Positions 42,833 to 59,857 of a DNA stretch of 64,000 nucleotides are shown here, piece by piece (positions within the stretch are counted from its first letter, which is position 1; each line of letters starts with the position of its first letter). The notes under the pieces were generated by a model. The model did no database searches. It saw nothing but the letters and a program-made list of their open reading frames with translations, and was not told where the DNA came from. Made by a program: the position numbers and the translations under genes. This DNA is from Vibrio tapetis subsp. tapetis (lineage in GTDB: Bacteria; Pseudomonadota; Gammaproteobacteria; Enterobacterales; Vibrionaceae), in NCBI RefSeq assembly GCF_900233005.1, contig NZ_LT960612.1:1791154-1855153 (forward strand), read 5' to 3'.

Positions 42833-42980
42833 TTAGTTTACCCTTTCGGTAGGAATATCATAAGATAATGCTTTGATTTCAGTTTGATAAGCTGTATCAC
42901 TCATTTTTCGTTATCCTGATGATTAGAAGAGAAAGTACTTCCATTCATTACATTCCCCGATGGTTAGCAACGAATTGGTT

Positions 42981-43008
42981 AAAAAAGAGCCACTCTATTT
43001 AGTGGCTC
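42981..43008 (-). terminator. Rho-independent terminator of guaC
   Basis: Minus strand: perfect stem GAGCCACT / AGTGGCTC with a 6-base loop and six T residues, just past the guaC stop codon. Confidence 0.9.
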
Positions 43009-43039: not shown

Positions 43040-43306
43040 CTACTCTTTACCGAATACGTTATTCTCTTGCTCTTGCACACGGATGAAAGTCGTACGCTTA
43101 GTTAGCTCTTTAAGCTTTGCGGCGCCTACGTATGTACACGTTGAACGTACGCCGCCAAGGATGTCTGAAATAGTGTCGTGCACGCTACCACGGAATGGCA
43201 ATAATACTGTTTTACCTTCAGCTGCACGGTATTTAGCTACGCCACCAGAGTGTTTCGCCATTGCGCTTTCTGAAGACATGCCGTAGAACTTAGCAAAAAT
43301 TGGCAT
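43040..43306 (-). pseudogene. guaC: GMP reductase, 3' fragment only
   Basis: About 84 residues match the C-terminal quarter of GuaC, which reduces GMP to IMP. The segments are [70 protein letters not shown] complete enzyme is about 347 residues. Upstream of the AAG TTC TAC GGC ATG codons the sequence no longer resembles guaC: the expected ENGEKFM is replaced by MPIFA. The natural terminator follows the stop, so this is the native 3' end, cut at about 43296. The rest of the gene is not in the window. Element integration or a contig join explains it. Confidence 0.85.
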
Positions 43307-44209
43307 TAATCATTTAAAATCAAAAAGTTAAATAAATGAAACTGTATATACCAACAGCAGTAATGAGCGATTTACACCTATAAATAACGCTATTTTACAA
43401 TGTATGCCGCCATTTTTGCCGCCACTTTTGCGAGCCAACCAAGCCGCTTAATTACTGAGCATTTACACAGCAAATACATAGCGAGTAGAATATTTACTTA
43501 CACCTAACCCAAACGCCTTTGCTTGCTGCGTCTGGATAGGTCAAGTTCGGGGGGAACTTGCCTCCCTATCTTCAATACGGGCTCTAGCGGGGTGATTTGG
43601 CTAACACTATACCAGTAACTCAAGAGATGGTGCTTGAGTAAGAGCATGCCGAAAACGATAAAGCTTTAGATTTTAACGAGTATGACCTCGATGCTTTTGG
43701 AAAAATAAAGGTGTCCTATATGAATTAAGAAAGACTTATGTGGGTGATGAAGATCTTACATAATGCCGGCAGAGCGAAAAACCTGATGCTTAACAAGCTA
43801 CATTTTTATGTAAAGTCTAACTGTAAAATGAGTTTTGAATAATTCAACAAATGACCATTTGTGCTATAGCCTCTTGCACAAATGAGTTAACGCACCTTTT
43901 CCCCATTGTTTGTTGATGCAATTACTTAGAGGCAGCTCATGTAATTGGGATGACAGTACCCATGTTTATGGTTAAAAGAGGCATTAAACGAAAGGATACT
44001 AAATAAATAAGCAAAGCGAATTTCAGGGTGTATTGGCATAGTTAATCGACGCGGGGGAAGTTAACATTTGCAGGCCTTTAATACTGGAGCGTTCGCTTAA
44101 TACTAGATTTCCTGGTTTTTCATGAAAGCGCAGCTCGGCTTGTACCTCACCAACGATAGATAACCCAATACCTCCTACTGCCCATCGTTCATAGTATTTA
44201 TGAAACGCC
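43307..44209. other. Junction region with remnants, no intact gene
   Basis: About 900 bases with no gene I can support. It contains a 12-base tandem repeat (TGCCGCCATTTT, TGCCGCCACTTT) at 43405-43428. A bulged hairpin lies at 43533-43570 (GATAGG..CAAGTTC-GGGGG-GAACTTG..CCTATC). An inverted repeat ATTTGTGC...GCACAAAT lies at 43857-43883. Minus-strand reading across the tandem repeat gives LAKVAAKMAAYIVK and a stop, which could be the tail of an integrase, but no catalytic part is present. This is where an attachment site or the end of an element would be expected. Confidence 0.4.
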
Positions 44210-44291
44210 ACCCAAATCCTGAAGTGGCTAAATTGGTACAAAACATCAATACCGCGTCGAGCTGTAACGTTATTGCTAAGTTCAGATTAAA
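44210..44291 (+). repeat. 82-base coding-like repeat, copy 1
   Basis: Direct repeat of 44635-44716, 71 of 82 bases equal. In the plus-strand frame it reads NPNPEVAKLVQNINTASSC and continues NVIAKFRL before a stop. Most of the base differences are synonymous, which points to the 3' ends of two related genes. No start or upstream body is left for this copy. Confidence 0.7.
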
Positions 44292-44294
44292 GTG

Positions 44295-44610
44295 TTACTG
44301 CTGATCCATTAACTTGCGTCCTTCTTCAATCGCACTAATTAGGCTATTTTGCAAGATAGGAAAGCAAAGCTCACTAAACCATTTGTGTTCAGGATCACGG
44401 TGGCTTTTGCTATGCCATAACAAATAGTATTGGTGTGGTACTAGTGTTATTTGAATGGGCTTGAGCACCAAGTCGAACTGCTTCGCATAGTCGATACTAA
44501 TATGCAGAGGGGCGGTCATAAGAGCATCAGTATTGGTAAGTATTCGAGAAGCAGACAAGAATGAGGCTGTTCTTGCGAGTATTTGCCTTTGCTTGTTGCT
44601 TCTGAACGCG
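44295..44610 (-). pseudogene. LysR-family regulator, C-terminal fragment
   Basis: Roughly the last 100 residues of a LysR-type transcription regulator: QRQILARTASFLSASRILTN, TDALMTAPLHISIDYAKQFD and WHSKSHRDPEHKWFSELCFP belong to the substrate-binding domain. The N-terminal helix-turn-helix and first subdomain are missing. The frame runs into a stop just upstream (about 44620), where a different coding remnant begins on the other strand. It is flanked on both sides by the 82-base repeat. This is a decayed or rearranged gene. The regulator's target is unknown. Confidence 0.7.
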
Positions 44611-44634
44611 TGTTAGTTTTAGTACGTCAATGCA

Positions 44635-44716
44635 ACCCAAATCCTGAAGTGGCTAAGCTGGTTCAAAATATTAATACCGCGCCAGGCTGCAACGTTATTG
44701 CTAAATTCAAATTAAA
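44635..44716 (+). repeat. 82-base coding-like repeat, copy 2
   Basis: Second copy of the repeat at 44210-44291. Here the open frame extends further upstream (YLPLLVASERVLVLVRQCNP, from about 44580) and ends FKLN-stop at 44720. It is thus a 3' gene remnant of about 45 codons. I do not recognise the family. Confidence 0.7.
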
Positions 44717-44720
44717 CTAG

Positions 44721-45208
44721 TTCACTGCCCTACCGATTCAAAGACAACCAAACACCAAAAAGGCAGCGTATTAACCGCTACCTTTTGCCATGTGACGTTA
44801 TCACTACGAGATTGCCTAATGTTCTTCTAAGTTATTGTACAATAAGAGATCACGAAAAAGCTCCACCGACAATAGCGCCAGGGAGAAAATGGAAACAGAT
44901 ATTCAGAACTCCTGACAATACTGAGAATTAATTTTACGTGAATGATTTTATTGACTTTTTAATTTATAAAATTCACCTACTCACCGCAACCCTATGAGAT
45001 TGGAACTTTATCTATCAATTTGCTTTTGAGCTAAAATTCTTGTTCAGTATCAGAACCGATCTCTAGTAGAGCTATACCAATAAGAAGCGGTTGAGGAAGT
45101 TCACATCGATTAAATCTTACGAAGTAAAATACTACACACTTTGTGACTCATAGTCCGTAGACCTTTACGTATCATCGCGAGATAATATGACTAAAGGAGA
45201 CCTTTATT
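44721..45208. other. Gene-free stretch
   Basis: About 490 AT-rich bases without a supported gene or clear repeat. The last part (AAAGGAGACCTTTATT, about 45194-45209) gives the ribosome site of the next small gene. Confidence 0.5.
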
Positions 45209-45424
45209 ATGATAATTGATCATTACCCAGAATTTTACTATGAAGAGGAGTACAGAGGATACACTCTGTACGTTGAAAATAATCCTGACCAGTATAATGA
45301 GGGTTATGAATACTCTATTTCTGACGGAACGAGCATTTTAGAGCAAGGGCTAACTTTTGATGCTCAAGAAGCAATAAAAAGCGCCCAAATTTTCGTTGAT
45401 TCTCTCGTCAAATCTAGCTCTTAA
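45209..45424 (+). CDS. Small acidic hypothetical protein, 71 aa
   Basis: The start has a strong AAAGGAGA ribosome site about 9 bases upstream. The protein is acidic and Tyr-rich (YYEEEYRGYTLYVENNPDQY), with no signal peptide or membrane segment. It ends in an amphipathic helix (AQEAIKSAQIFVDSLVKSS). I do not recognise the family. Its last 11 bases overlap the convergent HTH gene. The two could be related in function or merely neighbours. The gene looks intact in an otherwise decayed region. Confidence 0.6.
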   Translation: MIIDHYPEFYYEEEYRGYTLYVENNPDQYNEGYEYSISDGTSILEQGLTFDAQEAIKSAQIFVDSLVKSSS

Positions 45425-45644
45425 TCTGAGATAAACGTATAAGAAAATCCGCTGAGTCTATTTGCAGAGCTCCCAATAACTTTTCGAGCGTATCTAAAGT
45501 GACATTACGTTGGTTACGCTCCACTCCAGAAATGAAGGTCCTATCAATACCTGATTTTTTTGCCAATTTATCCTGGCTAAGTCCAGACTCGATGCGTATT
45601 TCACGTAGTAGTAATGCGGTGTTTTTTCGAAGTGAATGATTCAT
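45414..45644 (-). CDS. XRE-family helix-turn-helix regulator
   Basis: 76 residues, almost entirely one Cro/C1-type HTH domain. It has ALLLREIRIESGLSQDKLAK for helices 1-2, the recognition region KSGIDRTFISGVERNQRNVT and the closing LDTLEKLLGALQ. Small single-domain proteins of this size act as dimers. They include restriction-modification controllers, antitoxins and element repressors. No methylase or toxin gene is adjacent, so the role is open; control of the mobile region is plausible. It converges on the 71-residue gene with an 11-base overlap. Confidence 0.85.
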   Translation of the reverse strand: MNHSLRKNTALLLREIRIESGLSQDKLAKKSGIDRTFISGVERNQRNVTLDTLEKLLGALQIDSADFLIRLSQIKS

Positions 45645-46224
45645 ATATAGCCAATTACCGATTTAAGTCACTTTAGTGTAATAAAAACAAATTATAAGAC
45701 CACTGACTATAAGTCACATAAGCTTACTTACAAGCCAGATGTTGTGGCATAGGTCAAAATAGACCTCACGGCCTAATTAGGCGCTTCGATGACCAGCTAC
45801 CACTCACGCTTGGTTCGTTACTTTCCTTTGCCTAGTAATATGCTTGGGTGGGAGTGACTTACAACATGTCAGCTAATTCTTTAACCACTAACATCAATTC
45901 GCTTAGTCAGTTGAGTACGTGCTCATGCTGGCCTCATCCCATGTCTTTAGCGCTTGCAGTCTATCTGGTGCAGATCATAAATACTCAACCGACACATTTT
46001 AGCGACATACTAATCAAATCCCGTCCCTACCAAAACTAACTGAACAGAAACCAACAAACTTGTGCGCCCAATTAGATAACAAACATTGTTTAGCGTTTTA
46101 ACCTGAATTAAATTGCCTGTATGTCAATCGGTTTTACTTTGTATACCCGTAACTTGAAATAGTGTGCGACTAAACCATGGATATGTGAATTCAGATTTTT
46201 ATATAAACCAAATAGGACAAACCT
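45645..46224. other. Mostly non-coding stretch with a weak small ORF
   Basis: 580 bases. A 57-codon frame at 45866-46039 (MSANSLTTNINSLSQLSTCS...) has GGGAG about 11 bases upstream and is only weakly supported. A run at 45750-45775 (GGTCAAAATAGACCTC) contains GGTC..GACC. The XRE gene promoter should lie at 45645-45720. Confidence 0.4.
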
Positions 46225-46410
46225 GTGCCTGAACAATCAAAGTCCATTAACGTAACTGTTGCAGTGCATGAGCACAACAATCGACTTTTAACCGCATCTG
46301 CAAAGAAGAATAGACGAGTAAAATTACGCGAAGCAGAAGCAAGGCTTGCGCATCATTTACACTTGTTTGGTGCTGATTGGGCGCAAGCCCAAATGCCCCA
46401 TAAAAATTAG
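46225..46410 (+). CDS. Small basic hypothetical protein, 61 aa
   Basis: GTG start after AGGAC at a good distance. The protein reads as a short beta segment (SINVTVAVHEHNNRLLTASA), then a basic helix (KKNRRVKLREAEARLAHHL). It is small and basic enough to bind nucleic acid. I do not recognise it. It lies upstream of the conjugation operon, in the position where F-type plasmids carry small regulators or relaxosome proteins such as TraM or TraY, but no similarity to those is visible to me. Treat a DNA-binding role as speculation. Confidence 0.5.
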   Translation: MPEQSKSINVTVAVHEHNNRLLTASAKKNRRVKLREAEARLAHHLHLFGADWAQAQMPHKN

Positions 46411-46701
46411 TTTTATTGTCGGGAATAGATTATTTCCGGCTCGATAACCAATGTATTCTCTATGGTTAACAATATTCCTTGAGCGCTAAGAAGGGCGCGG
46501 GCTGGAATCAAAACGAGTCCAAGAAATGCGTGCGAAACATCAAATTGGCTCAACCATAGAGACTCGCTGCTCTAGCCAAGTAGTATGAATTGTGTTCATA
46601 CATAAGCAAAGAAACACAACACGGGTATTGAAAGGTACCCGCCTAATTTTAAGTGCAGATACTGCCTGCGCGTTAAAGTCAGCTGTTTAGGAATCCACCT
46701 C
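46411..46701. other. Inverted-repeat-rich intergenic region upstream of the tra genes
   Basis: Contains CTCTATGGTT (46458-46467) and its perfect complement AACCATAGAG (46552-46561), separated by 84 bases. A hairpin GTATGAA-TTGTG-TTCATAC lies at 46583-46601. A third stem (GGGTA..TACCC) lies near 46622-46639. Such density is typical of an origin of transfer or a complex promoter. No nic site can be assigned without the relaxase. Confidence 0.45.
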
Positions 46702-47205
46702 ATGCTTAGGATCATGTACGGCATACTCCCTTTGGACAGCCAGTTAATGCTCGGCGACATGACAGAGAAAAAACAATGCAAAAACCTAGTGGGCTTTTCT
46801 TTTCAAGATAACGCCATCATCAATGTCAAATTCATTGCAGATACGGCCGAAGGACTCATTTTTGCCGCGTTGATTGTTCCTAATAGCAGAGTAAATTCGC
46901 CATCGTTTCATGGAAGGATTGAATCCATACAAATAGATGATCGGCAGTGCCGCTTTTCTACCGTCCGTAGCCAACTAGCCATACATTTAAACCGCATACC
47001 GATAACACGGCGCAAACCAACCCGTAAATCAAATCGTATAAAAGGTGAAACTCAATGGCGGAGCAACTCAGGAAAGAAACGATTCCGAAAAGAAAAAAAC
47101 CTCACGTTAAGCAAGAGAAACTGGAAGCAATTTGTACGTAAACGTAAATCCGTGGTCAGCCTATACCTAAAAAATAAGGCAATGATAAGCACAGCCTCCG
47201 TTTAA
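46702..47205 (+). CDS. Hypothetical protein, 167 aa
   Basis: The first 100 residues look like a real folded domain (NLVGFSFQDNAIINVKFIADTAEG, IESIQIDDRQCRFSTVRSQL). The last 60 are extremely basic and low in complexity (RRKPTRKSNRIKGE, KKRFRKEKNLTLSKRNWKQF). In the +1 frame an ATG at 47055 with a good AAAGGTGA ribosome site opens a 28-codon frame, MAEQLRKETIPKRKKPHVKQ..., also lysine-rich. So the true gene end may be near 47055, with a second short gene or a frameshift. The family is unknown. It precedes the pilin gene by 325 bases. Confidence 0.45.
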   Translation: MLRIMYGILPLDSQLMLGDMTEKKQCKNLVGFSFQDNAIINVKFIADTAEGLIFAALIVPNSRVNSPSFHGRIESIQIDDRQCRFSTVRSQLAIHLNRIPITRRKPTRKSNRIKGETQWRSNSGKKRFRKEKNLTLSKRNWKQFVRKRKSVVSLYLKNKAMISTASV

Positions 47206-47530
47206 AAATCAAATTACGTATACAAAGCGACGACCGGTAGAAATGTAGCCTCTGTTATTGGCGCTTCCACAATAAGGGGGATCCATGTCGTTCGAGTGAG
47301 TACCCCGAATTCGGATAACGTACTTCTTTTGCCTCTGCATGATGTCTTTTTATCGTGTCGAGACAAAAGGAACGCCGAAAAAGTGAATCTCTTGTCCTTT
47401 TGGCCACCTATGAACACAACGACTCACGCATATCGCCACCTGGCGGGGGTAAGAAAGGACTGGCAACCTTTTAATGCACCCCTTCGCCACGTTACTTCAT
47501 GACGTTTACTCATAAAAAGGAAATCATCCA
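47206..47530. promoter_or_regulatory. Leader region of the tra operon
   Basis: 325 bases without a supported gene immediately before traA. Base composition shifts here from AT-rich to GC-rich. The traA ribosome site is AAAAAGGAAATC. The tra operon promoter is expected here, but I cannot place -10/-35 boxes with confidence. Confidence 0.4.
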
Positions 47531-47818
47531 ATGAAATGTAACTCACAACGCGCTCTGGCTGTTGGCGTGGCCGTCGGGCTTGGCGCCCTCTTGGTCACTC
47601 AACCCACGCTCGCCGCCGATTTGTTTGCCGGTGGCAAGCAAGCGGTCAAAGACACCGCCGGAAAAGGCTCTCTAGTCGAAACCGCCATGCTCGGCACTGG
47701 CCTACTTGGCGCCGTGGTCACCGGACTCATGACGCGTAACTGGTTCGCCGCCCTCGGCGGATTTGCCGGAGGCTCCATCTTATGGAACGTCGGCGCCCCA
47801 ATGGTCGGACTCGGCTAA
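47531..47818 (+). CDS. traA: TraA-type conjugative pilin precursor
   Basis: 95 residues. A long signal sequence ends at about residue 28 (TQPTLA-AD). The mature part is a short hydrophilic segment (FAGGKQAVKDTAGKGS) followed by two hydrophobic helices with a positive turn between them (MLGTGLLGAVVTGLMTRNWFAALGGFAGGSILW). This is the plan of F-type pilin, which is processed and inserted in the inner membrane before assembly. It lies first in the order traA-L-E-K, nine bases before traL. No separate traX or traQ was found. Confidence 0.85.
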   Translation: MKCNSQRALAVGVAVGLGALLVTQPTLAADLFAGGKQAVKDTAGKGSLVETAMLGTGLLGAVVTGLMTRNWFAALGGFAGGSILWNVGAPMVGLG

Positions 47819-47827
47819 GGAGATCTC

Positions 47828-48130
47828 ATGGAAGATCCTCATCAGTTTTTTGCGGTCCCCAAACACATGAACAAAGGACGCCGCCTCGTCGGCTTCCCCA
47901 TGGATGAAGTGCTGCCAGCGTTTGTCACCTTTGGCCTCGCGTTTTGGCTTGGACACGAAATGATTGGCATGGTGATAGCCATGGCGTGGTTCGGGGGATT
48001 GCGCTACATCAAATCCCAATACGGGGATCACATCATCGCGCAAGCCAGCTATTGGTGGGGGGCTTCCTTTATGAAGCGCGTGTTATTCACGCGCACCCCC
48101 GCCGCCTCCAAACGCTACTGGATATATTAA
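47828..48130 (+). CDS. traL: TraL, conjugative pilus assembly protein
   Basis: 100-residue small inner-membrane protein of the F-type T4SS (VirB3-like). RRLVGFPMDEVLPAFVTFGLAFWLGHEMIG and FGGLRYIKSQYG, followed by the amphipathic end RVLFTRTPAASKRYW, are typical of TraL. The hydrophobic core contains one or two membrane passes. The ribosome site AAGGAGATC precedes the ATG. It is followed by traE after nine bases. Confidence 0.9.
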   Translation: MEDPHQFFAVPKHMNKGRRLVGFPMDEVLPAFVTFGLAFWLGHEMIGMVIAMAWFGGLRYIKSQYGDHIIAQASYWWGASFMKRVLFTRTPAASKRYWIY

Positions 48131-48139
48131 AGGCCGTTT

Positions 48140-48715
48140 ATGGACAGTTTCATCAAACAAGACAAACTGGCGATAAAAAGCCTGCTCAATCTTTTTTTGA
48201 GCCTCGGCTTTCTTGCCATGCTCCTCACCAATCTGGTGCTCGGTTTTTCGGTGTACCAAGCCCTCACCCATAAAAGCCGCACCCTTGTGCCCCCGGTGAT
48301 ATCAAAAGCCTTCTCTTTGTCGGACTCCCAAGTGGATGCGCCCTACTTAGAGCAAATGGCCGATTACTTTTTGTATCTCAAACTCAACGTCACCCCAGGC
48401 AACGTCGGTCGGCAATACGGCCAACTGCTGGAATACGTAGACGAAGGCAGTTGGGCCACCTTTCAACCCAATCTGCTGCGAGAAGCGGGCGCCATCAAAA
48501 AGGGCAACATCAGCAGCCAGTTCGCTGCAAGCACGTTCACGATTAACCTTGATGAGTTGAAAGTGCACGTAAAAGGAACGCTAACCAAACACGTAGGCAC
48601 GCGCACGCTGCCCGCGGAGAGTAAATGGTATCAAGTCAACCTGACCTACCACCATGGCGTACTCGCCCTTCAATCCATCCAAACTCTAGAGGCCACCGAC
48701 CATGCATCGCCCTAA
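48140..48715 (+). CDS. traE: TraE, conjugative pilus assembly protein
   Basis: 191 residues, F-type TraE (VirB5/VirB8-like position in the operon). An N-terminal membrane helix (about 15-38, LLNLFLSLGFLAMLLTNLVLGFSVYQAL) is followed by a periplasmic domain with LEQMADYFLYLKLNVTPGNV and LKVHVKGTLTKHVGTRTLP. It acts in pilus assembly at the inner membrane. The stop overlaps the traK start by 14 bases, showing coupling. Confidence 0.9.
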   Translation: MDSFIKQDKLAIKSLLNLFLSLGFLAMLLTNLVLGFSVYQALTHKSRTLVPPVISKAFSLSDSQVDAPYLEQMADYFLYLKLNVTPGNVGRQYGQLLEYVDEGSWATFQPNLLREAGAIKKGNISSQFAASTFTINLDELKVHVKGTLTKHVGTRTLPAESKWYQVNLTYHHGVLALQSIQTLEATDHASP

Positions 48716-49493
48716 TGTCTTTCCCCCAACGCGCACTCGGTTTTATCCCCCGTTTTACACACGGTTGTGCTTACTGCTCTTTCTCTTGAGCACTCCACTC
48801 ATGGCGCAAGCCCAAAACGCAGAAAAAGTGACTTACCCCTTTAGTAATGGCGACACCATCCCTTTATCTCTGTCTTCCATTAACCTCAACCGGCTCGTGG
48901 TGGCCAATGACCGAATTTTATCCATCGTGTGCCCGCAAGGCTTTTGCACCTCATCGGGCAACCAAAAAGACGCCTCCGGCTCCATCACCTTAAAAATCAA
49001 CATTGCTCTGCCCTTTACCGCGCATTTGACCACCGAAAAAGGGCGCTTGTTCGCGCTGTTCATCAGCCCCAAAGCCACCCCGGGCTTCGTGTCCGAATTT
49101 ACGTGGGCGCAGTCTCATTTAGAGCAAGACAGTGTCATGCAAACCAGCGCCGATTACCCCAAGGGCCTGACACGACTCACCAAGGCCATGATGCGCTTTG
49201 TCCATGACAAAGCGCCGATTGAGGGATTTAGCCAGCACCCGGTAGATCCCGCCACGTTACCAGACGATGACGCAGCGCTGGCCGTCATCCCCACCACCGT
49301 GTTTGTCGGCCGCGATTACTCGGGCATCATTTACACCCTGCGCAACCAAACCCAAACCCTTATGACGCTCACCACCGCGCAATTTTACAGCGATTCCGCG
49401 CGCAGTGCGGCGCTTGAAGCTTACGAGCTGGCTCCTGGAGCCAGCACCACCTTATACCTCATCACCGGGGGAGGCGCCGCGCATGTTCGATAA
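48702..49493 (+). CDS. traK: TraK, outer-membrane core component (secretin-like)
   Basis: 263 residues with a signal peptide (about 1-38, CLLLFLLSTPLMAQAQ). TraK in F is the VirB9-like ring protein that works with TraV and TraB to span the envelope. Segments seen are NGDTIPLSLSSINLNRLVVANDRI, SGSITLKINIALPFTAHLTTEKG and the C-terminal VFVGRDYSGIIYTLRNQT. The gene overlaps traB by 11 bases. The long N-terminal extension before the hydrophobic core (MHRPNVFPPTRTRFYPPFYTR) suggests a later true start, but no better ribosome site was seen. Confidence 0.88.
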   Translation: MHRPNVFPPTRTRFYPPFYTRLCLLLFLLSTPLMAQAQNAEKVTYPFSNGDTIPLSLSSINLNRLVVANDRILSIVCPQGFCTSSGNQKDASGSITLKINIALPFTAHLTTEKGRLFALFISPKATPGFVSEFTWAQSHLEQDSVMQTSADYPKGLTRLTKAMMRFVHDKAPIEGFSQHPVDPATLPDDDAALAVIPTTVFVGRDYSGIIYTLRNQTQTLMTLTTAQFYSDSARSAALEAYELAPGASTTLYLITGGGAAHVR

Positions 49494-50991
49494 CACCAAA
49501 GACCGATTAAGCCGCGTGGGACGCACCTTCTTTAAAGACCGTGACGGGGACTTTGACCAAGGCGAGCGCATCAACCAAGCCACGCACTCCCGCAACCTCA
49601 TCATCACTGTGGTTATCTTGGCGGCGCTCGCCTTAGCGGGCGCGCTGGTCTGGCAAATGACGCGAGAGGCCACCTCGGTTGAGCCCGTCACCCAAGTGGG
49701 CTTTGGCGCCGTGGTCGGTGACGACTTCACCGAAAAAGACAACCAATCCGCCCTCACCGCGCAGCAGCTTAAAATCAACCAGCTAGAGCAATCCCTGATT
49801 AAGTTTGAAAGTACGCTGGGGCGCTTTGGCGACAGTCTCACCGCAGAGCTTAAAAACATCGAGCAGGCGAGCGCGCGCAATCAAAGCTCGACCTTGAGTG
49901 AGCTTGAGCGAAAAATGCAAGACAAACTGGCGGAAATCGACGCCCTCAAAACGCAACTCACCACGCAGTGGCAAGAGGCGAAGAAACCGGCAGGCCAAGG
50001 CGCGTCAGCCGACGTCTATTCTGGCCGAAATTTTGGGGAGTATGCCCTGCCCCCTCGCCCGTCGGTTCGTGATGGGCAAAACAACTCGAACATGGCGGAC
50101 TTTCAATACCAAGGCAAAGACAACGTCGCGTTTGCCGCGCAAGGCTTTGACAGTTTCGAGTTCACCTGGGCGGCCAGTGAGCAAGAACGCGCCCCTCGGC
50201 GCACCGTTGATAACTACGTGCCAACCAGCACCTTTGTGACCGCGGTGGTCACCGGGGGCGCGGATGCGAACGCCGGTGTCTTAGGCCAAGGCGATACGGC
50301 GCCGCTGGTTTTCCAAACCCTGAACGCCGGCATTTTGCCAAACGGTAAACCGTCAAAATTACGCGACTGCACCGTAACAGGTTCCGTTTATGGGGAAATC
50401 TCGTCCAGTCGCGGCATTGTTCGCACCCACCGTTTGAGCTGCATCCAGCCCAGCGGCGACATCTTAGACGTGCCCGTCAAGGCCACCGCGTTTAACTTTG
50501 GTCGCAACGGCATTCGAGGCACGACGATATTGAAAAACGGTCAAATCGTTAAAATGGCCGGGATATCAGGCATCCTTGAAGGATTAGGCGGCGCCGGCAA
50601 AGCCCTGTCACAAACCACTACCCCGACCGCGTTAGGGCCAAGCAGCAGCGTCAGCACCGACAAAATCGGCCTGAACTTACTGGGCAGTGCCACCCAAAGC
50701 GTCGGCAGCAAACTGGCTGACTATTACATCCAATTGGCGGAGTTGTATCACCCCATCGTGGAAGTCAACCCGGGCGCCATCGTGAACCTGGTGTTCTTGG
50801 AAGGCTTCCCGCTTGACCCCGTCTTGGCCCAAGCCTACGAAACCGAACTGGAAGAAAAAGCGCACGCCGCTTCCAATACCAACCACATCATGGACGTCAT
50901 CACCAATGCGCCGACGAGCGCCATCAACCCCCTCGCCGATAAGCTCACTCAACAAGGGCTTAACCAAACCGGCTTTGGACGACAGGAGTAA
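49483..50991 (+). CDS. traB: TraB, VirB10-like envelope-spanning protein
   Basis: 502 residues from the ATG at 49483 (MFDNTKDRLSRVG). Farther-upstream in-frame starts lie inside traK and lack a family N-terminus. Plan: cytoplasmic N-terminus, membrane helix (about 40-58, LIITVVILAALALAGALVW), periplasmic coiled coil (about 85-165), then the TrbI/VirB10 barrel domain (from about 235) with VTAVVTGGADANAG, TVTGSVYGEISSSRGIVRTHRLSCI and a C-terminal AELYHPIVEVNPGAIVNLVFLEGF. It links inner membrane and TraK/TraV ring. traV begins three bases later. Confidence 0.93.
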   Translation: MFDNTKDRLSRVGRTFFKDRDGDFDQGERINQATHSRNLIITVVILAALALAGALVWQMTREATSVEPVTQVGFGAVVGDDFTEKDNQSALTAQQLKINQLEQSLIKFESTLGRFGDSLTAELKNIEQASARNQSSTLSELERKMQDKLAEIDALKTQLTTQWQEAKKPAGQGASADVYSGRNFGEYALPPRPSVRDGQNNSNMADFQYQGKDNVAFAAQGFDSFEFTWAASEQERAPRRTVDNYVPTSTFVTAVVTGGADANAGVLGQGDTAPLVFQTLNAGILPNGKPSKLRDCTVTGSVYGEISSSRGIVRTHRLSCIQPSGDILDVPVKATAFNFGRNGIRGTTILKNGQIVKMAGISGILEGLGGAGKALSQTTTPTALGPSSSVSTDKIGLNLLGSATQSVGSKLADYYIQLAELYHPIVEVNPGAIVNLVFLEGFPLDPVLAQAYETELEEKAHAASNTNHIMDVITNAPTSAINPLADKLTQQGLNQTGFGRQE

Positions 50992-50994: not shown

Positions 50995-51375
50995 ATGAAG
51001 CGCATCATAATCAGCCTCACTTTGCTGACCTTATCCGGCTGCGCCGCCGGATTGGATGGCGACTACGGCTGCAAAAAAATAGGCGGCACATCGAGCTGTA
51101 CCACCATGGACGACATTAGAAACAACCCTTACGGTCATGCCGGTCAAGAGCATGGCGACGCCATCTTGACCCCCACCGCGCCCGCCTCTTTTACGCTGCT
51201 GCCAAGGCGAGACCGACATGGCCAGCCGACACGAAGCCGTGAGCGAGTCAAAAAGGTGACCATTTTTCCTTTTAAAGACCAAGATAACGACTACGTTGAC
51301 ACCATGGATGTGTATTTCGTGCTCGATGACAGCCAATGGTCAGGGCGCCCCGCCCCGGCCATTTGGCAAGATTAA
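50995..51375 (+). CDS. traV: TraV, outer-membrane lipoprotein of the T4SS core
   Basis: 126 residues. The lipobox LSGC places the lipidated cysteine at C16. The TraV signature follows: GDYGCKKIGGTSSCTTMDDI, with paired cysteines. The C-terminal half (VKKVTIFPFKDQDNDYVDTMDVYFVLDDSQW) matches the end of TraV. It is shorter than F TraV (about 170 aa), with a compressed middle. It anchors the TraB-TraK core in the outer membrane. Confidence 0.9.
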   Translation: MKRIIISLTLLTLSGCAAGLDGDYGCKKIGGTSSCTTMDDIRNNPYGHAGQEHGDAILTPTAPASFTLLPRRDRHGQPTRSRERVKKVTIFPFKDQDNDYVDTMDVYFVLDDSQWSGRPAPAIWQD

Positions 51376-51388
51376 AAGGAGAAAAGAA

Positions 51389-51713
51389 TGCAATCCTTCA
51401 TAAAAAAGGCGTTCATTGTCGCCACTTGGGCTAAGGCGCTCTGTTAATGAGCGCCTTAGCCCAAGTGGCGCAGTACGTGCTCAGCACGAACTCGGCCAGA
51501 GCCCACACCTATACGGTCTACCTTGAGCATCAACCGTGGCCTCATCAACGCCTTATTGACGCTTTACGCGAGCTAGAGCGGTGCGAACTCGGGCAACCTA
51601 TCAGCGAAGACGCCACACACCCAATCATCAAACCCGTTAACCTCTACGAGTGCCTGAAAAAACAGGCTTCAATGAACTCTCGGCCGCCATTAAGCGCTCC
51701 GATGAGGCCATGA
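51389..51713 (+). pseudogene. Small exported protein gene between traV and traC, frame interrupted
   Basis: An ATG after AAAAGGAGAAAAGA opens MQSFIKKAFIVATWAKALC, then stops at TAA. The next frame, starting MSALAQVAQYVLSTNSARAH, continues to 51713. Together they read as a signal peptide plus a small mature protein of about 75 residues (YTVYLEHQPWPHQRLIDALRELERCELGQP..VNLYECLKKQ). One added base near 51440-51443 would fuse them. The break falls exactly at a perfect 20-base inverted repeat. The mature part is not recognised. Alternatively the second frame alone is the gene, starting at 51447. Confidence 0.5.
51421..51469. repeat. Perfect 20-base inverted repeat, 9-base loop
   Basis: GCCACTTGGGCTAAGGCGCT at 51421-51440 is exactly complemented by 51450-51469. 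The loop is CTGTTAATG and holds the ATG of the second frame. There is no following T run, so it is not a standard terminator. The stem would hide the translation start in RNA. Confidence 0.85.
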
Positions 51714-51763
51714 TGCCCGTCAGTTGGCCCTTATCCCTTTTCTGGTAACCCCACGGAGTCTCC

Positions 51764-54318
51764 ATGTTTTCTCAATCCACCTCCGGCTTATCCCGCCTCT
51801 TTACCGAGGCCAAAAAAGCGCAAAACCACCTACACCATGAACTGCCGTATCGAGAGCATGACGCCATTGACCGCGTTTTTCGCAATCAACATGCTCAAGG
51901 CTTTGGCTTTCGCCTCAGCATTCTGGGCGGCGCCAATGACACCATCATTCAATCGCTCAACAAATTGGTGGCCGATTTACCGCAAGGCGACAAATGGGAC
52001 TATCAATTGCAACTGTTTGGCCACAATCGAGTGGCGCATTATCTGGAAAGCAACGAAGCCTTACTCAGTAAACGCGGCGGCGTGTGCGCGAAAATGGCAA
52101 GAGATGACGCGATTTACGCGAATTACGCTGCCCAAGCCGGCTTTTTTCATCGACAAAAAAACAGCCATTTCGATTTACGCGATTATGATGCGTTTATGTT
52201 TGTCTCAACCTGCGAAGACGAACCCCAAGCCTTGCTGGATGCGCGCATCACGCTGGAGACCGGGTTGATGCAATTGGGGTTTGATTTGCAACCGCTGACC
52301 CCGGAGGCGCTGCTCACTCACGTGGGCGATGTGCTTAATTTTGATCCCAATCAAGACCGCCCACAGCTCAAGTCTTATCACCCTTTGGAGTCACTGCACC
52401 GCCAAGCGCTCGCCCCTGACACGGAAATGATGACGCACCGTGAGTACATTGATACGCGCCACACCAACGACAAGGGCGAAGAAACTCGCGGACGCATTGT
52501 GAACATGGGCTTATCCAAACTGCCCGGAGACTATCGTCTGTACGCGCTGCCAGAGTGTTTTTCGTCGTTAAGAAACGTCTCCCGCTCCATCAAATGCCCC
52601 CATATGCTGACGCTCAACTTTCGTCATGAGCCCACCGGGAAACAAAACGCCAGTAATGATGCCAAAATCAAAGATTTGACCAAAACGGTGGAGTCAAAAA
52701 TGGCCCTACTGGCGCCCACCGCCAAAGACGAGCTGGCCGAGCGCAAAGCCATTCAAGCGGGATTGCTGGGTAAATCTTTCACCATCGCCAGCATGGTCTT
52801 GACCGTCACGCTGTTCACCAACCGCAAGGAAGGAAAACAGCACACCCAAGCGGCCAGAGAAGCGTTCAGTAACGCCGGTCTCGATATCGCCCCCCTCAAA
52901 ATGCTCCAGCCTCAAGCCTTGCTCAGCATCCTGCCCTTCATGATGAGCGAAGGGCTTTGGGAGGATTGCAAGCGAGTCGGCCGCACTCGCACCGTGAAAA
53001 GCTCCAATCTGGTGAACTTTTTCCCGGTGGTGCTGGATTTTCGCCAGCTCAAAGGCGGCATGCTGCTTCCGACCATGCGACAGCAGATCTCATTTTTTAA
53101 CCCCTTTACCTGTGGCAGTGATAACCAGAACATTGCCCTGACGGGCGGCTCAGGGGCGGGCAAAAGCTTCTTTGTCCAAGAGATGGCCGAGAACGTGTAC
53201 GCCATGGGGGGCAAAGTGTGGATCCTCGATAAAGGCGCCAGCTACAAAAAGCTCACCTTGAGTTTGGGCGGCACCTACATGACCCACAACAACATTTACT
53301 TAAACCCGTTCACTCACTTAGGGAAAATGGCCGACGCCCAATTTGAGTTTGTGGACGACGACGGCACCGCGGTGGATCCGATGATGGAAGCGCTGGACAA
53401 CATCACGGCTTTATTCGCCACCATCGCCTCGCCTTATGCGCCCCTGTCCACGTTCCAACAAAGCGTTTTGGGCGACGCCATTGTCCAAGCGTGGGAAGCC
53501 AAAGGCGTAGACACCTTGGTGGATGATGTCAGGGATGCCCTCATCGACATTGCCGGCGAAGAGCAAGACCGCCGCATCAAAGACATTGCGGTGCAACTGA
53601 AAAAGTATGGCACCGATGGCACGTATAGTGATGTGTTTAACAAGCCGTCCATGCTCGATCCTAAAGTGGAATTCACCACCTTGGAGCTCGATGGCTTTCC
53701 GCCTGCGGTGTTAAGACCGGTGATTTTCGCGCTCATGGTGTCGATTAATCAGCAAATGTACTTATCCGGCTCTCGCTCTACCCCGAAGCTGTGCATCATT
53801 GAAGAAGCGTGGAGCTTGTTGAGTGGCGCCAACGAGCAGGCGCGCGAGTTCATTAACACCGGCTATCGCACCGCTCGAAAATTCGGTGGCGCGTTTTGCA
53901 CCGTCACGCAAGGCATTGAGGATTTCTTTAGTAGCGAAGAAGCCAAGGCAAGCTACAACAATTCCGACATTCATATCTTATTACGACAAGGAGCCGGCTT
54001 TGATAACTACCTCACCGACAACCCCAACGTGTTCTCCTCCTTTGACCAAGCCATCATCAAGGGGTTTGAGAAATCCAGCGAAGCGGGCTACAGCTGCGCG
54101 CGCATCAAAGCGGGTGGACACGTTACCTACCACCGCTTTTCGCCTCCCCCGTCAAACGCGCCATGCTCTCCACGGAGCCTCACGAGTTTGAGTATTGTGA
54201 AAACTTGGTGCAAGCAGGCCACGCTTTGGAGTCGGCCATTGAGCAAACGTCCATGCACTTTTACGGCGATGAAATCCACGCCTTCCAGCAAGCCATCCAT
54301 CAAACGGGCGGTGCCTAG
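51764..54318 (+). CDS. traC: TraC, T4SS assembly ATPase (VirB4-like), 3' frameshift
   Basis: About 850 residues. Walker A is LTGGSGAGKSFF (from T460), Walker B LCIIEEAW (E680-E681), with the TraC/VirB4 segments FFNPFTCGSDNQNIAL, VWILDKGASYKKL and NTGYRTARKFGGAFCTVTQGIEDFF. It powers pilus assembly. The native end (FASPVKRAMLSTEPHEFEYC.. to IHQTGGA-TAG at 54318) lies one base out of frame with the main body. At 54136-54143 CGCTTTTCGCC should probably read with one more T. As written, the frame runs on into traW to 55036 and would give a 1090-residue fusion. A homopolymer sequencing error is the simplest explanation. Confidence 0.85.
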
Positions 54319-55036
54319 CAAACATCGCGGTAACACGTGGCTTTTGGCCGCAATTTGGGTAAGTTGGCTCTGGGTGGGGGTAACTACTCACAGTCAGGCC
54401 AAGGATTTTGGCCGGGTTGCCCCCGCCTTTCCCATTGGGGAAATCGACATGCTGGACTGGATAGAGCACCGATTAAAACAATTTGAGGCCAACGGAAAGA
54501 TGGCCGACCTACAAGACACGTTCACCCAACGGGTCAAAGCCAGCATCCAAACCCCCACGCCCGTCCAAGGGCTGTTAACCACCACCTCGCCGCGCACCTT
54601 TTATGTGGATCCCAGCGTGACGTTAACCAAAGACTTACTCGTTCCCAATACGGGCCAGCGCATTGCCAAGGCGGGCACGCGCATCAACCCGTTCGATCCG
54701 ACAACGTGGCCAGCCATTGAGGGTCAATCGGTCTTACCCAATTTTGAACTCAGTAAAGTCTTGGTGTTCTTTGATGCCCGCGATGCCAAGCAGCGGCGGT
54801 TTGCCAGTCAATACACCCACACCAAACCGATAAAATGGGTGCTCACTGGGGGCAGCCCTAACGCCATGGCCGCCTTAACCGGTCAGCAATACTATTTTGC
54901 GCAGCAAGGGTTTCTCACCAAGCAATTGCACATCACTCACCTTCCCGCGATAGCCTATCAAGAGGGCACGCGCTGGCGCATCGACGAAGTGGATGTCTCT
55001 GGCTTGATGCGTTTGGAGAAGACACCTTCCCCTTGA
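54311..55036 (+). CDS. traW: TraW, conjugative pilus assembly protein
   Basis: 241 residues from a GTG at 54311 that overlaps the true traC stop (GTGCCTAG). A signal-like hydrophobic segment (TWLLAAIWVSWLWVGVTTHSQA) leads to the TraW domain: FGRVAPAFPIGEIDMLDWIEHRL, PRTFYVDPSVTLTKDLLVPNTGQRIAKAGTRINPFD, and VFFDARDAKQRRFA with a periplasmic end. F TraW acts with TraU and TrbC in pilus assembly. In F, trbI lies between traC and traW; here the two genes overlap and no trbI is present. Confidence 0.88.
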   Translation: MPSKHRGNTWLLAAIWVSWLWVGVTTHSQAKDFGRVAPAFPIGEIDMLDWIEHRLKQFEANGKMADLQDTFTQRVKASIQTPTPVQGLLTTTSPRTFYVDPSVTLTKDLLVPNTGQRIAKAGTRINPFDPTTWPAIEGQSVLPNFELSKVLVFFDARDAKQRRFASQYTHTKPIKWVLTGGSPNAMAALTGQQYYFAQQGFLTKQLHITHLPAIAYQEGTRWRIDEVDVSGLMRLEKTPSP

Positions 55037-55160
55037 TTATGCTTCCACTGCGACCCTTTTTTCTATCAACTAAGCTCGCTTTTGGCTGCGATAATGAGGC
55101 AACGCCTCTTGTTGAGACAAAAGGAGCACCACGCGCAGCGTGGATACTAAGGACACGCCT
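55037..55160. repeat. traW-traU gap with two short hairpins
   Basis: GAGGC-AAC-GCCTC at 55096-55108 and CCACGC-GCA-GCGTGG at 55129-55143, both perfect, within a 124-base gap in an otherwise packed operon. No T run follows either. AAGGACACGCCT gives the traU ribosome site. Confidence 0.6.
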
Positions 55161-56171
55161 ATGCACCGCTTACTGTTGCGCTCAACACTTGCCCTCCTAC
55201 TCGTGTTAAGCGCCCCCTCTACGCTCGCCGCCGGCCCCGCCTGCAAGAGTCGTTTTATCAACCCCATTACCGATATTTGCTGGGACTGCTTGTTTCCGAT
55301 GACGATTGGCGCCGCCACCGTATTGCCTTCCAAATACCCCGACACCCGCAACCCGTCTTTTCCGATTTCCTTTTGCCCCAAGCCGCCGCCGATATTCATG
55401 CAAGTGGGCATCAACATCGGTTATTGGGAGCCTTATGCGTTAACGGACATCACGCGCGTCCCTTATTGCATGGTCAACATGGGCATTGAAATGGGGGGCG
55501 CCAATAAGCAAAAAATAGGAGGACGCATCACCGCGCGCGAAAGCGACAGCAGCGATGGCGGTTTTTATCACGCCCATTGGTACAAATACCCGCTCATTTA
55601 CTGGTTACAACTGATGCAATCGGCCGCGTGCATGGCGACCGATAGTTTTGATGTGGCTTATCTCACCGAAATTGACCCCATTTGGGACGACGATGAGCTG
55701 GCCCTGGTGCTCAACCCCGAAGCGTTATTGTTTGGTAATGTGGTGGCGCAGCTTGCGTGCGTGCCAGAGGCCATGCTCACCTCGACCAATTCATCCTTGC
55801 CCATTGATGCCCTGTTTTGGTGTTTGGGCTCCCAAGGCAGTGCCTATCCGTTAACGGGCACAACGAACTATCGAGACACGCCCATCCAAGCGGCCACCCT
55901 GCTGATGGAAAGGCTCAATTACAAATTGCACCGCCAAGGCATGGTGTGGGAAACGCGTGGTGAAAGCGGGGCGATTTGTTACCAATATCCAGACCCACTG
56001 CTGCCCAAGTCTCGATACCGCTATCAAATGTCCGCGCCCATTGCGGACGCACAATGGTGTCACCCTTACACGACCACCACCACGCTGTGGGAGGCCGGTC
56101 ATGATAACCCCGTCACCGGGGATAATTTTGGCTTTGTTCAATGGCGAAAACGCAATTGCGTCTTTTTATAG
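55161..56171 (+). CDS. traU: TraU, conjugative transfer protein
   Basis: 336 residues from MHRLLLRSTLALLLVL, which begins a clear signal peptide (cleavage near TLAA-GP); an ATG 21 bases upstream lacks this shape. TraU is a periplasmic, cysteine-rich protein needed for DNA transfer. Typical segments are FINPITDICWDCLFPMTIGA, ISFCPKPPPIFMQVGINIGYWEP, VYLTEIDPIWDDDELALVLNPEA and a C-terminal GFVQWRKRNCVFL. About twelve cysteines are present, matching the presence of TrbB as a disulfide catalyst. It is complete and intact. Confidence 0.93.
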   Translation: MHRLLLRSTLALLLVLSAPSTLAAGPACKSRFINPITDICWDCLFPMTIGAATVLPSKYPDTRNPSFPISFCPKPPPIFMQVGINIGYWEPYALTDITRVPYCMVNMGIEMGGANKQKIGGRITARESDSSDGGFYHAHWYKYPLIYWLQLMQSAACMATDSFDVAYLTEIDPIWDDDELALVLNPEALLFGNVVAQLACVPEAMLTSTNSSLPIDALFWCLGSQGSAYPLTGTTNYRDTPIQAATLLMERLNYKLHRQGMVWETRGESGAICYQYPDPLLPKSRYRYQMSAPIADAQWCHPYTTTTTLWEAGHDNPVTGDNFGFVQWRKRNCVFL

Positions 56172-56462: not shown

Positions 56463-57170
56463 ATGCGCCCTCGACTCTTACGCAAAGCCTGTCGCTTTGC
56501 GCTGTGGGCCTGCGCGCTCACAAGCCCGCTCACCCACGCGTACACAAAAGAAGAACTCCAAGCCTTTCAGGACATCGAAAGGCGCCTAGCGGAGCGCCCC
56601 GACGACGCCATCATGGCGCAATCCAAAACCTTACATGACCAAGCCAACGCATTCCAATATGACGCGCAACAAGCCAGTAAGGCCGCGGGGCGCAAGCTTA
56701 ACCCGCAATCGCTCTCCCCCTTACTGGATACCCCATCCGCTCAGACCAATCCAGAGCAAGCGCCCAAAGGCGTGATGGTGTTTGTGTCATTAACCATGCC
56801 AGACACCGCCCTCACTCAATTGCTCAAACAAAGCGAGCGCACCGGTATCCCCTTGGTGATACGCGGCGTCCTGCCACAAGGCTTTACCGCGACCGTAACG
56901 CGCATTCAAACCCTCATCAATCAAGGCAACCGCCCAGCCATTCGCAGCGGTTTCTCCATCAGCCCAGATTGGTTTCGGCAATTTGATATCCAGCAAGTGC
57001 CCACGTTCGTGTCCATCAAACCCGGACAATGCCAACCCAAACAATCTTGCCTGCCCACCGATTATGATGTGGTCACGGGCAATATTTCGTTGTATCAAGC
57101 CTTAGAGACGCTAGCGCAAGGCGACACCCAACAGGAGGTGGCGACGCTGCTGCGCGCACTCGAGCATTAA
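56463..57170 (+). CDS. trbC: TrbC (F-type), periplasmic pilus assembly protein
   Basis: 235 residues with a signal peptide (LRKACRFALWACALTSPLTHAY). After a coiled, Gln-rich region (25-85) comes the TrbC_Ftype domain with a thioredoxin-like fold: GVMVFVSLTMPDTALTQLLKQSE, GIPLVIRGVLPQGF, and IQQVPTFVSIKPG. There is no CxxC, so it is not an oxidoreductase. In F, TrbC interacts with TraW and TraU. It is spaced 13 bases from traN. Confidence 0.9.
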   Translation: MRPRLLRKACRFALWACALTSPLTHAYTKEELQAFQDIERRLAERPDDAIMAQSKTLHDQANAFQYDAQQASKAAGRKLNPQSLSPLLDTPSAQTNPEQAPKGVMVFVSLTMPDTALTQLLKQSERTGIPLVIRGVLPQGFTATVTRIQTLINQGNRPAIRSGFSISPDWFRQFDIQQVPTFVSIKPGQCQPKQSCLPTDYDVVTGNISLYQALETLAQGDTQQEVATLLRALEH

Positions 57171-57183
57171 AAAAGGAGCGCTC

Positions 57184-58914
57184 ATGCGCACATTCTTGCC
57201 CCGCTTCATCACACTATTATGCCTTTGCTCTCCCATGCTCACTCACGCCAATCAAGCGCAAACCTATAACGACAGCGCCCAATGGGCGAAACACACGGCC
57301 AACCAAACGCTCACCCCAAGTGCGTTGCCCTTAAACGCCAAAGACTATTGCAAGGACGCCGCCTGTAAAAGCGGTGTGGATAACCCCAAAGAGTCCCAAC
57401 TCGATGACAGCACTATCAATAGCCAAAAGGCGCACGCCTTTGCCACCAATGACATCGCGCAAGACATCACCCACAACTTTAACCAAGGTCGGCCTGACAT
57501 TAAAAATGACCCCGCCATGAGATTTGCGCTGCTTGGCCAAGAGAACGCCTTTGAGGTAACGCACGGCATCTCCAATGCCTACGTGGATTGCAAGAGCGGC
57601 TCTCAATGCGTCATCGACCCTGTCCCAAGGCAATGCAATCAACCCACACGAAAACAGGTTCCTTGCGAGAAAGTCCCCATTGCCTCTGTGACCGTGAGTC
57701 CCGTCATTTTCATTTGCCCTCAAGGTTGGACGAATCAAGGACGAGACTGCACGAGGCAAATCACACAATGCCGTTATGACGCTCGCAACTCTGTCTCCGC
57801 TAGCGGAGGCAACTGCGGGAGACTTGGGGGCGAATGGATGATATGGGATGGGCGTCGCGTTCAGAGCGGAAAATGGAAAGGGAAAGAAAAATCGGATCGA
57901 AACTATGATTGTCGAGGAGGCCGGCACAGCGGCTGGTCAACCACTTGGGAGATTTGTGGGCTGGTTAATGAAACCATGCCCGCCACGCTCACCTGCCAAA
58001 CAGGCTTCTCTCTTTCAGGCGGTAATTGCATCAAAAACACCTTCAGTTGGTCACCGCAATGCACGTTAATTAAAGCCTGCAAACCCATCAGTGAAACCTG
58101 CATTGAGGGGGAAGAAACACGGATAGTCAATGGGATCCCCACCACGTTGCCTTGTTGGAAGTACCAAATTAACCATGAATGCAACACGACAGATACTTGC
58201 AAGCCACTGCCCAACGACTGCACAACCACAGAGAAACGATGCAGCTTGAAGCAAAATGGCGTTTGTGTCGAAGAGGAAGTGCAAAAAAGCTGCCCTGAAA
58301 AAACCTGCCATACCACGGCACTCGAATGCGGTGAGCAGTCTTTTTGCTTGGATGGGGATTGCTACCAAGAAACGCCGAAGCTTAATGTCAACTTCGATAA
58401 ATCCGTGGCCGCGCTCGCAGGCCTTGCCGAAGCGGTCAAAGACGTGGGCTCACCGCCCAAAATCTTCACAGGAAAACCGATGCAATGTGAAAAGAAAATC
58501 GCCGGCTTTAATGACTGCTGCAGCGATTCAGGTTGGGGGCAAGGCTTAGGCGCGAAATGCAGTGAGCAAGAGAAAGCCTTGGGCAAAGCCAAAGGAAAAG
58601 GGCTCACGCTGTATGTCGGCGAGTTTTGCGCAAAAAAAATCCTCGGCGCTTGCTTACGACACAAGCGCAGTTACTTCGTTTACGACAGTAAGTTGGCCAA
58701 AATCATCCAACAACAAGGGGCCATGAGTCAGCTTGGTAAAGGACTAGGCTCTTCAGAGCGCCCCACTTGCGCGCCATTAACCCCCGAAGAGCTCGGTCAA
58801 ATCAATTTTGAACACATTGACTTTGCCGAGTTTTATCCAGAGATGAAAGGCAACACAAACTTACCCAACTTTGATGAAATCAAAAACCGACTTCAAAGTG
58901 CCACGGGCGGATAA
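57184..58914 (+). CDS. traN: TraN, mating-pair stabilisation outer-membrane protein
   Basis: 576 residues, signal peptide 1-22 (LLCLCSPMLTHA). It is cysteine-rich throughout, about two dozen, as expected for TraN, which contacts outer-membrane proteins of recipient cells. The conserved C-terminal half has NVNFDKSVAALAGLAEAVKD, GFNDCCSDSGWGQGLGAKC, and YVGEFCAKKILGACLRHKRSYFVYDSKLAKIIQQQG. The middle (about 200-270, SASGGNCGRLGGEWMIWDGR) is the part that varies between TraN types and sets receptor preference in enterobacteria. This version does not resemble a type I can name. It is slightly shorter than F TraN (602). Confidence 0.92.
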   Translation: MRTFLPRFITLLCLCSPMLTHANQAQTYNDSAQWAKHTANQTLTPSALPLNAKDYCKDAACKSGVDNPKESQLDDSTINSQKAHAFATNDIAQDITHNFNQGRPDIKNDPAMRFALLGQENAFEVTHGISNAYVDCKSGSQCVIDPVPRQCNQPTRKQVPCEKVPIASVTVSPVIFICPQGWTNQGRDCTRQITQCRYDARNSVSASGGNCGRLGGEWMIWDGRRVQSGKWKGKEKSDRNYDCRGGRHSGWSTTWEICGLVNETMPATLTCQTGFSLSGGNCIKNTFSWSPQCTLIKACKPISETCIEGEETRIVNGIPTTLPCWKYQINHECNTTDTCKPLPNDCTTTEKRCSLKQNGVCVEEEVQKSCPEKTCHTTALECGEQSFCLDGDCYQETPKLNVNFDKSVAALAGLAEAVKDVGSPPKIFTGKPMQCEKKIAGFNDCCSDSGWGQGLGAKCSEQEKALGKAKGKGLTLYVGEFCAKKILGACLRHKRSYFVYDSKLAKIIQQQGAMSQLGKGLGSSERPTCAPLTPEELGQINFEHIDFAEFYPEMKGNTNLPNFDEIKNRLQSATGG

Positions 58915-58961
58915 ACCGCCCTTCCATCCACGCCATGCTCCCATCCGTTTAACCAAGGTCT

Positions 58962-59747: not shown

Positions 59748-59759
59748 CAACGAGAATGT

Positions 59760-59857
59760 TTAATCCACTAAAAGTAACCACAGTCCAACAAACACCAACA
59801 ACGCGACGCAAAAGCCCACACCGATTATCACGTTCACCACAAAAAACCGCTGTCCAT
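59760..59857 (-). other. Possible antisense membrane micro-protein, frame off by one base
   Basis: On the minus strand an ATG at 59857 has a good AAAGGGATTTAAA ribosome site. It opens MDSGFLW and stops. One more T in the T6 run (59841-59846) gives MDSGFFVVNVIIGVGFCVAL then LVFVGLWLLLVD, a single membrane helix ending at TAA (59760). This would be a 32-residue hydrophobic peptide opposite to the operon, filling the 148-base traF-trbB gap. Similar one-base homopolymer losses are seen elsewhere in the window. Chance remains possible. Confidence 0.35.

Follow-up and report, generated by a model that had tools for sequence, protein, structure and literature searches.

Why does guaC, the gene for GMP reductase, break off beside a block of conjugation genes on chromosome II of Vibrio tapetis, a clam pathogen, and where is its 5' part? 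The window that raised this question is a stretch of 64,000 nucleotides in which only the last 83 guaC codons and the stop codon remain, starting abruptly at AAG TTC TAC GGC ATG on the minus strand and followed by a terminator-like hairpin. The original prediction, made from the window alone, had counted about 84 codons with the native terminator behind them and proposed that a conjugative element had integrated in guaC. Both points agree with what we report here, the latter being borne out by an intact guaC and a 258-bp repeat at the far end, an adjoining integrase, and the same layout in independent genomes. Judged from sequence comparison, the locus is very probably one end of a ~68-kb integrative and conjugative element (ICE) that integrated site-specifically in the 3' part of guaC, and whose own tail rebuilds the gene.

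The guaC repeat and the extent of the element

The V. tapetis genome is assembled in three contigs, and the window stops at the last base of contig C2 (1,855,153 bp). Across the contig ends, at C2:47509–48561, we found a full guaC of 350 amino acids (PF00478), and with it the missing 5' part at the other end of the element, where it had been predicted to lie. A repeat of the break-point bases had also been expected there; it is present but is not merely a few bases long, as the two guaC tails match at 95% identity (E 8e-117) up to a homology boundary at window position 43291. The hairpin likewise has a second copy on the element, beside the intact guaC. Between the two tails 12 of 252 bases differ and all 12 differences are synonymous, so that both look as if they had been selected in the past as parts of a GMP reductase, and the host 5' part joined to the displaced tail gives a single 350-aa reading frame. 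We therefore reject a loss of guaC in view of the intact copy; the gene is rebuilt by the element's own tail. Examined for an empty site, the nearest relative found (G167) has cobC and an intact guaC on separate contigs.

The transfer gene traG begins in the window and continues in its C-terminal part at C2:886–1653. When mapped on plasmid pVT1, the contig ends overlap by ~230 bp (the window side reaching 21037, the C2 side starting from 20806), in support of a circular chromosome. The window's final ~600 bases (~63420–64000) and C2:1–900 are noisy and rich in homopolymers, and traG is unreadable as a whole across these ends. The element runs from window position 43292 through the contig ends to about C2:47760, and a tyrosine integrase (PF00589) lies 130 bp from the intact guaC. 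An integrase and direct repeats at both chromosomal ends, as expected of an ICE, are thus present. The relaxase, coupling and mating-pair genes are represented by Pfam matches to TrwC/TraI, TraD, TraC and TraG_N and, for the other tra genes, by similarity to pVT1, with traG broken at the noisy contig ends.

Anatomy of the element and its proposed integration

The features on the window side are collected in Table 1. A match to the prophage of genome G236 spans the guaC tail and the left end up to 43583, at 82% overall. The following ~4 kb are decayed or foreign and largely unmatched in the six other elements compared, and searches of the 43.6–47.5 kb stretch against plasmids and phages returned short matches only. 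We observed that traC and traW homology falls in a single 1090-aa frame (51764–55036), while the two lie ~550 bp apart in G028 and G068.

Table 1. Window features at the guaC junction and in the transfer region (window coordinates).
Feature	Position	Strand	Basis
guaC terminator-like hairpin, 3' of the displaced tail	about 42977..43008	-	28/32 aligned positions identical between the copies
Displaced native guaC 3' end, codons 268–350 and stop	43040..43291	-	258-bp DNA match at 95% identity with the intact guaC tail
Conserved att core region, guaC coding strand TTCTACGGCATGTC, codons 269–273	43275..43288		conserved start of guaC tails
Element left end, like the far end of guaC-site P2-like phages	43292..43583		83–86% to V. 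cyclitrophicus phage PQ189285
Putative arm-type repeat TGYCGCCAC, left copy	43417..43425	+	conserved position in six elements
AT-rich stretch with small or decayed ORFs	43584..47500		LysR fragment 44295–44558, Cro/C1-type regulator 45414–45644 (Pfam)
traA, traL, traE, traK, traB	47531..50991	+	98% DNA identity to pVT1 and its annotation; weak TraA Pfam match
traV, traC and traW in one 1090-aa frame, traU	50995..56171	+	1090-aa frame with PF11130 and a P-loop TraG domain; tblastn to other elements; pVT1 annotation
trbC, traN, traF, 137-aa TraF-like protein, traH	56463..61715	+	96% DNA identity to pVT1 and its annotation
traG N-terminal part, continuing at C2:886 past the contig end	61718..63478	+	PF07916; C-terminal part at L003 886–1653

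Beyond the contig ends, Pfam matches identify traD and a TrwC-type TraI on C2. The cargo comprises an alanine-racemase-like gene, a DUF1611 gene, an HD-domain protein, a PIN-domain gene, MFS and LysE transporters, a C5 methylase, HNH and AAA proteins with PADLOC similarity, and ORFs judged by eye to be transposase-like. On the integrase side the order is a PF03090 replicase (Rep), CII, Cox, CI, a 126-aa protein, the integrase and guaC, with CI, Cox and CII assigned by Pfam and PHROGs. As judged by similarity, the integrase, CI, Cox, CII and both element ends are P2-like; the early module of a P2-like prophage is therefore present, while the P2 capsid (PF05125) has no match in the V. tapetis genome. 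G081, G156 and G061 each have a Rep homologue of 43–53% identity on their third contig; these contigs may be plasmids, which would suit a plasmid-type initiator.

We propose that the tyrosine integrase recombines a core of ~14 bp in guaC codons 269–273 with an identical core on the circular element, which would bring its own guaC tail of 83 codons, stop and terminator. Integration would then rebuild guaC as an intact chimera next to the integrase and displace the host's original tail to the opposite end, in the window. In 17 of 18 distinct guaC tails lacking the 5' part (two duplicate rows removed), the guaC alignment starts at residue 266–269, just ahead of the core or of a near variant, those of G248 and L176 differing by a few bases; the exception, L178, starts at residue 261. 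From this we infer a crossover in or beside the core. The element would thus combine a P2-like integration and control module with a PF03090 plasmid-type initiator, a MOBF relaxase and an F-type transfer system. The CI-type repressor probably keeps it silent and the Cox-like excisionase would promote its excision, after which replication of the circle by Rep and transfer by the tra genes may follow.

Recurrence in other genomes and alternative origins

Matches to the integrase at 1e-40 occur in 97 of 227 Vibrio genomes. Among 30 integrase loci that were fetched, 23 have a full guaC at 95–171 bp, one has a guaC tail at 93 bp and six are without guaC; in named genomes, the DNA fetched around 80 loci contains guaC or its tail in 24 cases, and the rest are nearly all integrases of ~48–53% identity. 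A MOBF (TrwC) relaxase lies within the guaC element in 4 of 25 genomes (V. tapetis, which is G000, and G248, G068 and G028, in the last of which the relaxase shares a contig with the displaced tail) and anywhere in the genome in 7 of 25. The same four carry the PF03090 Rep on the integrase side, and Rep occurs anywhere in 6 of 25. The order of displaced tail, tra, traI, Rep, CII, Cox, CI, integrase and guaC is repeated in G248 and G068, and over two contigs in G028.

The same site also holds phages. A P2 capsid lies between two guaC copies in 4 of 25 genomes (G236, G184, G201 and G164) and anywhere in 8 of 25; it probably belongs to the guaC element in G206 and G160 as well, capsid and integrase being on different contigs in G160, and the capsid matches of G197 and G094 are off the guaC element or on another contig. 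Both TrwC and the P2 capsid are absent genome-wide from G124, G235 and G090, whose guaC-flanked elements measure 94, 67 and 49 kb. Thus guaC represents one core-gene address that is used, and apparently traded, by phages and conjugative elements.

Some loci depart from the common layout. Vibrio sp. AND4 (L040, one of the six fetched loci without guaC; L067 / G184:C140:214434–215462) has a second guaC-type integrase of 86% identity without an adjoining guaC and with a guaC tail 12 kb away, possibly a tandem or rearranged insertion. In Photobacterium (L082, L083 and L084) the guaC-type integrase faces a guaC tail of opposite orientation to that in Vibrio, as if the integrase gene had switched sides of the attachment core. 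In Vibrio ouci (L056 / L086) the integrase is followed by a guaC tail running directly into left-end-like sequence, as in a circular or tandem junction.

We weighed several other origins against that of a guaC-site ICE, whose anatomy, repeats, recurrence in other species and shared module are supported by the data. The chief alternative raised by the original prediction was a contig chimera, in which the pVT1 tra region would have been misjoined to the chromosome beside a duplicated piece of guaC. Such an artifact would account for a traA-to-traG region 96–98% identical to that of pVT1, which is present in the same assembly, and for a contig that breaks within traG at noisy ends. However, pVT1 is assembled separately (C3, 82,266 bp, its first 40 kb identical to NC_010614), the chromosomal traA to traG differ from it by 2–4% and by more in places, and the whole gene order recurs in G248, G068 and, over two contigs, G028. 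With the same anatomy in these three independent genomes, a chimera is very unlikely and we reject it. A Tn7-like CRISPR-associated transposon also comes to mind, as PMC6360697 describes such elements at the guaC (IMPDH) locus of V. cholerae HE-45 and V. parahaemolyticus ISF-25-6. According to that text they insert downstream of the gene, with repeats usually of 5 bp; here, by contrast, the break is within the gene, the repeat is 258 bp long, a tyrosine integrase adjoins guaC, and the sole TnsA-type (PF08722) match in the genome is on C1, with none on C2. The intragenic break, the long repeat and the location of the TnsA-type match lead us to reject this origin, which is exceedingly improbable.

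Closer to the guaC-site ICE, and overlapping with it as to distant origin, is a nested composite in which a conjugative plasmid entered a P2-like prophage already resident in guaC, so that the whole is not one mobile unit. The P2-like nature of both ends and of CI, Cox and CII fits such a history, as do the P2-like prophages that occupy the guaC site in other species. Against it, the V. tapetis genome lacks a PF05125 capsid match, and the gene order Rep, 88-aa protein, CII, Cox, CI persists in G000, G248, G068, G005 and G093 despite their differing integrases, which argues for an early region that belongs permanently to the element; the 88-aa protein was not detected in G028. We regard a nested composite as unlikely.

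Mosaic integrases and change of target site

We compared integrases by counting residues identical to the V. tapetis protein over residues 1–66, which we take to be the arm-binding domain, and over residues 67–343. Integrases of guaC phages share 64–65 of 66 and 266–268 of 277 residues, and those of other guaC elements (V. amylolyticus, G248, V. atypicus and V. profundi) 45–58 of 66 and 217–226 of 277. Integrases at tdh share 56–59 of 66 and 110–116 of 270, and one at a Nudix gene 64 of 66 and 131 of 272. The tdh- and Nudix-site integrases are therefore 85–97% identical to that of V. tapetis over the first part and 41–48% beyond, and in the first domain most of them are closer to V. tapetis than the same-site integrases of G248, V. 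atypicus and V. profundi. A V. cyclitrophicus phage (PQ189364) that terminates in the last 44 codons of tdh has the same split (60/66 and 112/271), and its neighbouring 126-aa protein matches at 123 of 126 residues. At L088 11105–11656, a third integrase type adjoins a Nudix gene (PF00293). At the DNA level the tdh- and Nudix-site integrase genes are 76–96% identical over the first 200 bases and 38–46% over the next 100, and the drop lies close to the start of the Pfam Int_N match at residue 60.

Trees of the two integrase parts disagree: the tdh- and Nudix-site proteins stand far outside the guaC clade in the C-part tree, where long branches meet, and fall within the cluster of V. tapetis and the phages in the N-part tree, which has 69 columns and unsettled bootstrap values. 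With G160 and three IMG/VR contigs labelled as phage, the four ICE integrases need four label changes on the C-part tree, of which well-supported branches force at least three. This suggests that ICEs and phages exchanged integrases more than once.

The rest of the element is mixed in its affinities. Leaving pVT1 apart, each of the 17 labelled tra ORFs has a closer counterpart in the tdh-site ICE of G005 than in the guaC ICEs of G248, G068 and G028, for example traD (86% versus 67%), traI (79% versus 62–64%) and the N-terminal part of traG (75% versus 48–50%). The integrase shows the opposite, being 97% identical over 343 aa to that of the G236 phage and 51% to that of G005. Most simply, a tdh-type ICE would have acquired a guaC-type integrase from a phage. 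Because the tra block is nearly identical to that of pVT1, its closeness to G005 could also stem from exchange with a pVT1-like plasmid; Rep, at 81–82% to G005 versus 68–70% to the guaC ICEs, is independent support for the putative tdh-type origin. CI is about equally similar to both. Against a change of address, the guaC ICEs provide closer matches than G005 for ORF o30 and for the 119-aa protein that follows traI, and they contain the racemase-like and DUF1611 genes, which were not found in G005. Among six genomes with a Rep of 80–82% identity (G093, G010, G239, G005, G183 and G166), TraI lies near the integrase in G005 only. Adjacency to tdh was examined in G005, G093, L125, L128, L137 and L138, with G010 and G239 left out. 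G005 has a 46-codon tdh piece between the integrase and a full tdh, and the far tdh repeat of its ICE was not found in the 120 kb fetched.

The putative arm-type repeats bear on the same question. In G000, G248, G068, G028, G236 and G164, a single TGYCGCCAC lies ~120 bp in from the left end, with two to four copies beside the integrase; in V. tapetis three copies lie between integrase and guaC (L005:7388, 7413 and 7424), where 0.14 would be expected in the 20-kb locus. The 64-kb window holds three against 0.87 expected, one of them the left copy, which is therefore convincing only through its conserved position. At tdh and Nudix sites the repeat runs in reverse beside the integrase (L088, L137 and G005) or was not found there (G093, L125 and L128), and the arm sites are thus not simply constant.

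Taken together, these comparisons lead us to suggest, at roughly even confidence, lowered by the contrary affinities and the reversed repeats, that Vibrio P2-like phages and F-type ICEs share an exchangeable addressing cassette. In one lineage, the 126-aa protein and integrase residues 1–66 would stay constant while a swapped core-binding and catalytic part, together with the gene tail, re-addresses the element to guaC, tdh or a Nudix gene, and recombination with a guaC phage would have redirected a tdh-type ICE to guaC, giving the V. tapetis element. The 126-aa protein was not detected in G248, G028 or G164, which limits the constant cassette to one lineage. The mosaic integrases form a natural series in which one domain is constant and the putative site-choosing part varies, making the rules by which new target sites are gained directly testable.

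Relation to known systems

Five P2-like phages of V. cyclitrophicus (PQ189285, PQ189377, PQ189333, PQ189357 and PQ189370) have a guaC tail at one end and integrases 94–97% identical to that of V. tapetis. PQ189285 further resembles the ICE in CI, in the 126-aa protein next to the integrase and in its far end, which matches the ICE left end; it differs in its P2-type capsid, terminase and gpA replication genes, with no Rep or tra genes listed in the half examined. The paper that we believe to describe these phages is PMC11630473. By term counts, its main text makes no mention of guaC or GMP reductase. In the portions of the open-licence literature covered, we found no description of an ICE at guaC or tdh; guaC appears there as a locus downstream of which Tn7-like CRISPR transposons insert, and a V. 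sinaloensis island has its integrase at L-threonine 3-dehydrogenase (both in PMC6360697). We also reject identity with the published V. tapetis virulence T4SS, which PMC8116749 places on chromosome A and assigns to the VirB type.

For V. tapetis CECT 4600T, chromosomes of 3.7 and 1.8 Mb and an 88-kb pVT1 are given in PMC5825899. pVT1 and related Vibrio MOBF/MPF_F plasmids have the same order from traA to the post-traI genes as the ICE, with 96–98% DNA identity over most of the transfer region; in contrast, pVT1 is a separate replicon with partition genes and another replication protein, and the integrase end of the element finds no DNA match in it. We observed that the traG qPCR primers for pVT1 copy number (PMC3033894) fit both traG copies without mismatch (window 63209–63268, pVT1 20677–20736), and the assay would therefore count both. 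F-type transfer regions are present twice in V. tapetis, on pVT1 and, in nearly identical form, on the chromosome, and what looked like a broken gene is resolved as a clean integration site.

SXT/R391 ICEs of gammaproteobacteria integrate in prfC and combine an F-type transfer system with a phage-like repressor and a MOBH relaxase. The V. tapetis element resembles them in its F-type transfer, its phage-like repressor and its insertion in a housekeeping gene; it differs in its site in the 3' part of guaC, its TrwC/TraI relaxase, which is MOBF by Pfam and pVT1 typing, and its P2-like integrase, CI, Cox and CII. Phage 21 and e14 in the icd gene of Escherichia coli carry the 3' end of their target gene and rebuild it on integration. 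The V. tapetis element likewise carries its target's 3' end and rebuilds the gene, but its target is guaC and is used by both phages and conjugative elements. The mechanism therefore appears to be of a known kind, gene-rebuilding integration, and what is apparently new is guaC as a site for an ICE, a P2-like control module on an F-type element, and domain-mosaic integrases common to phages and ICEs.
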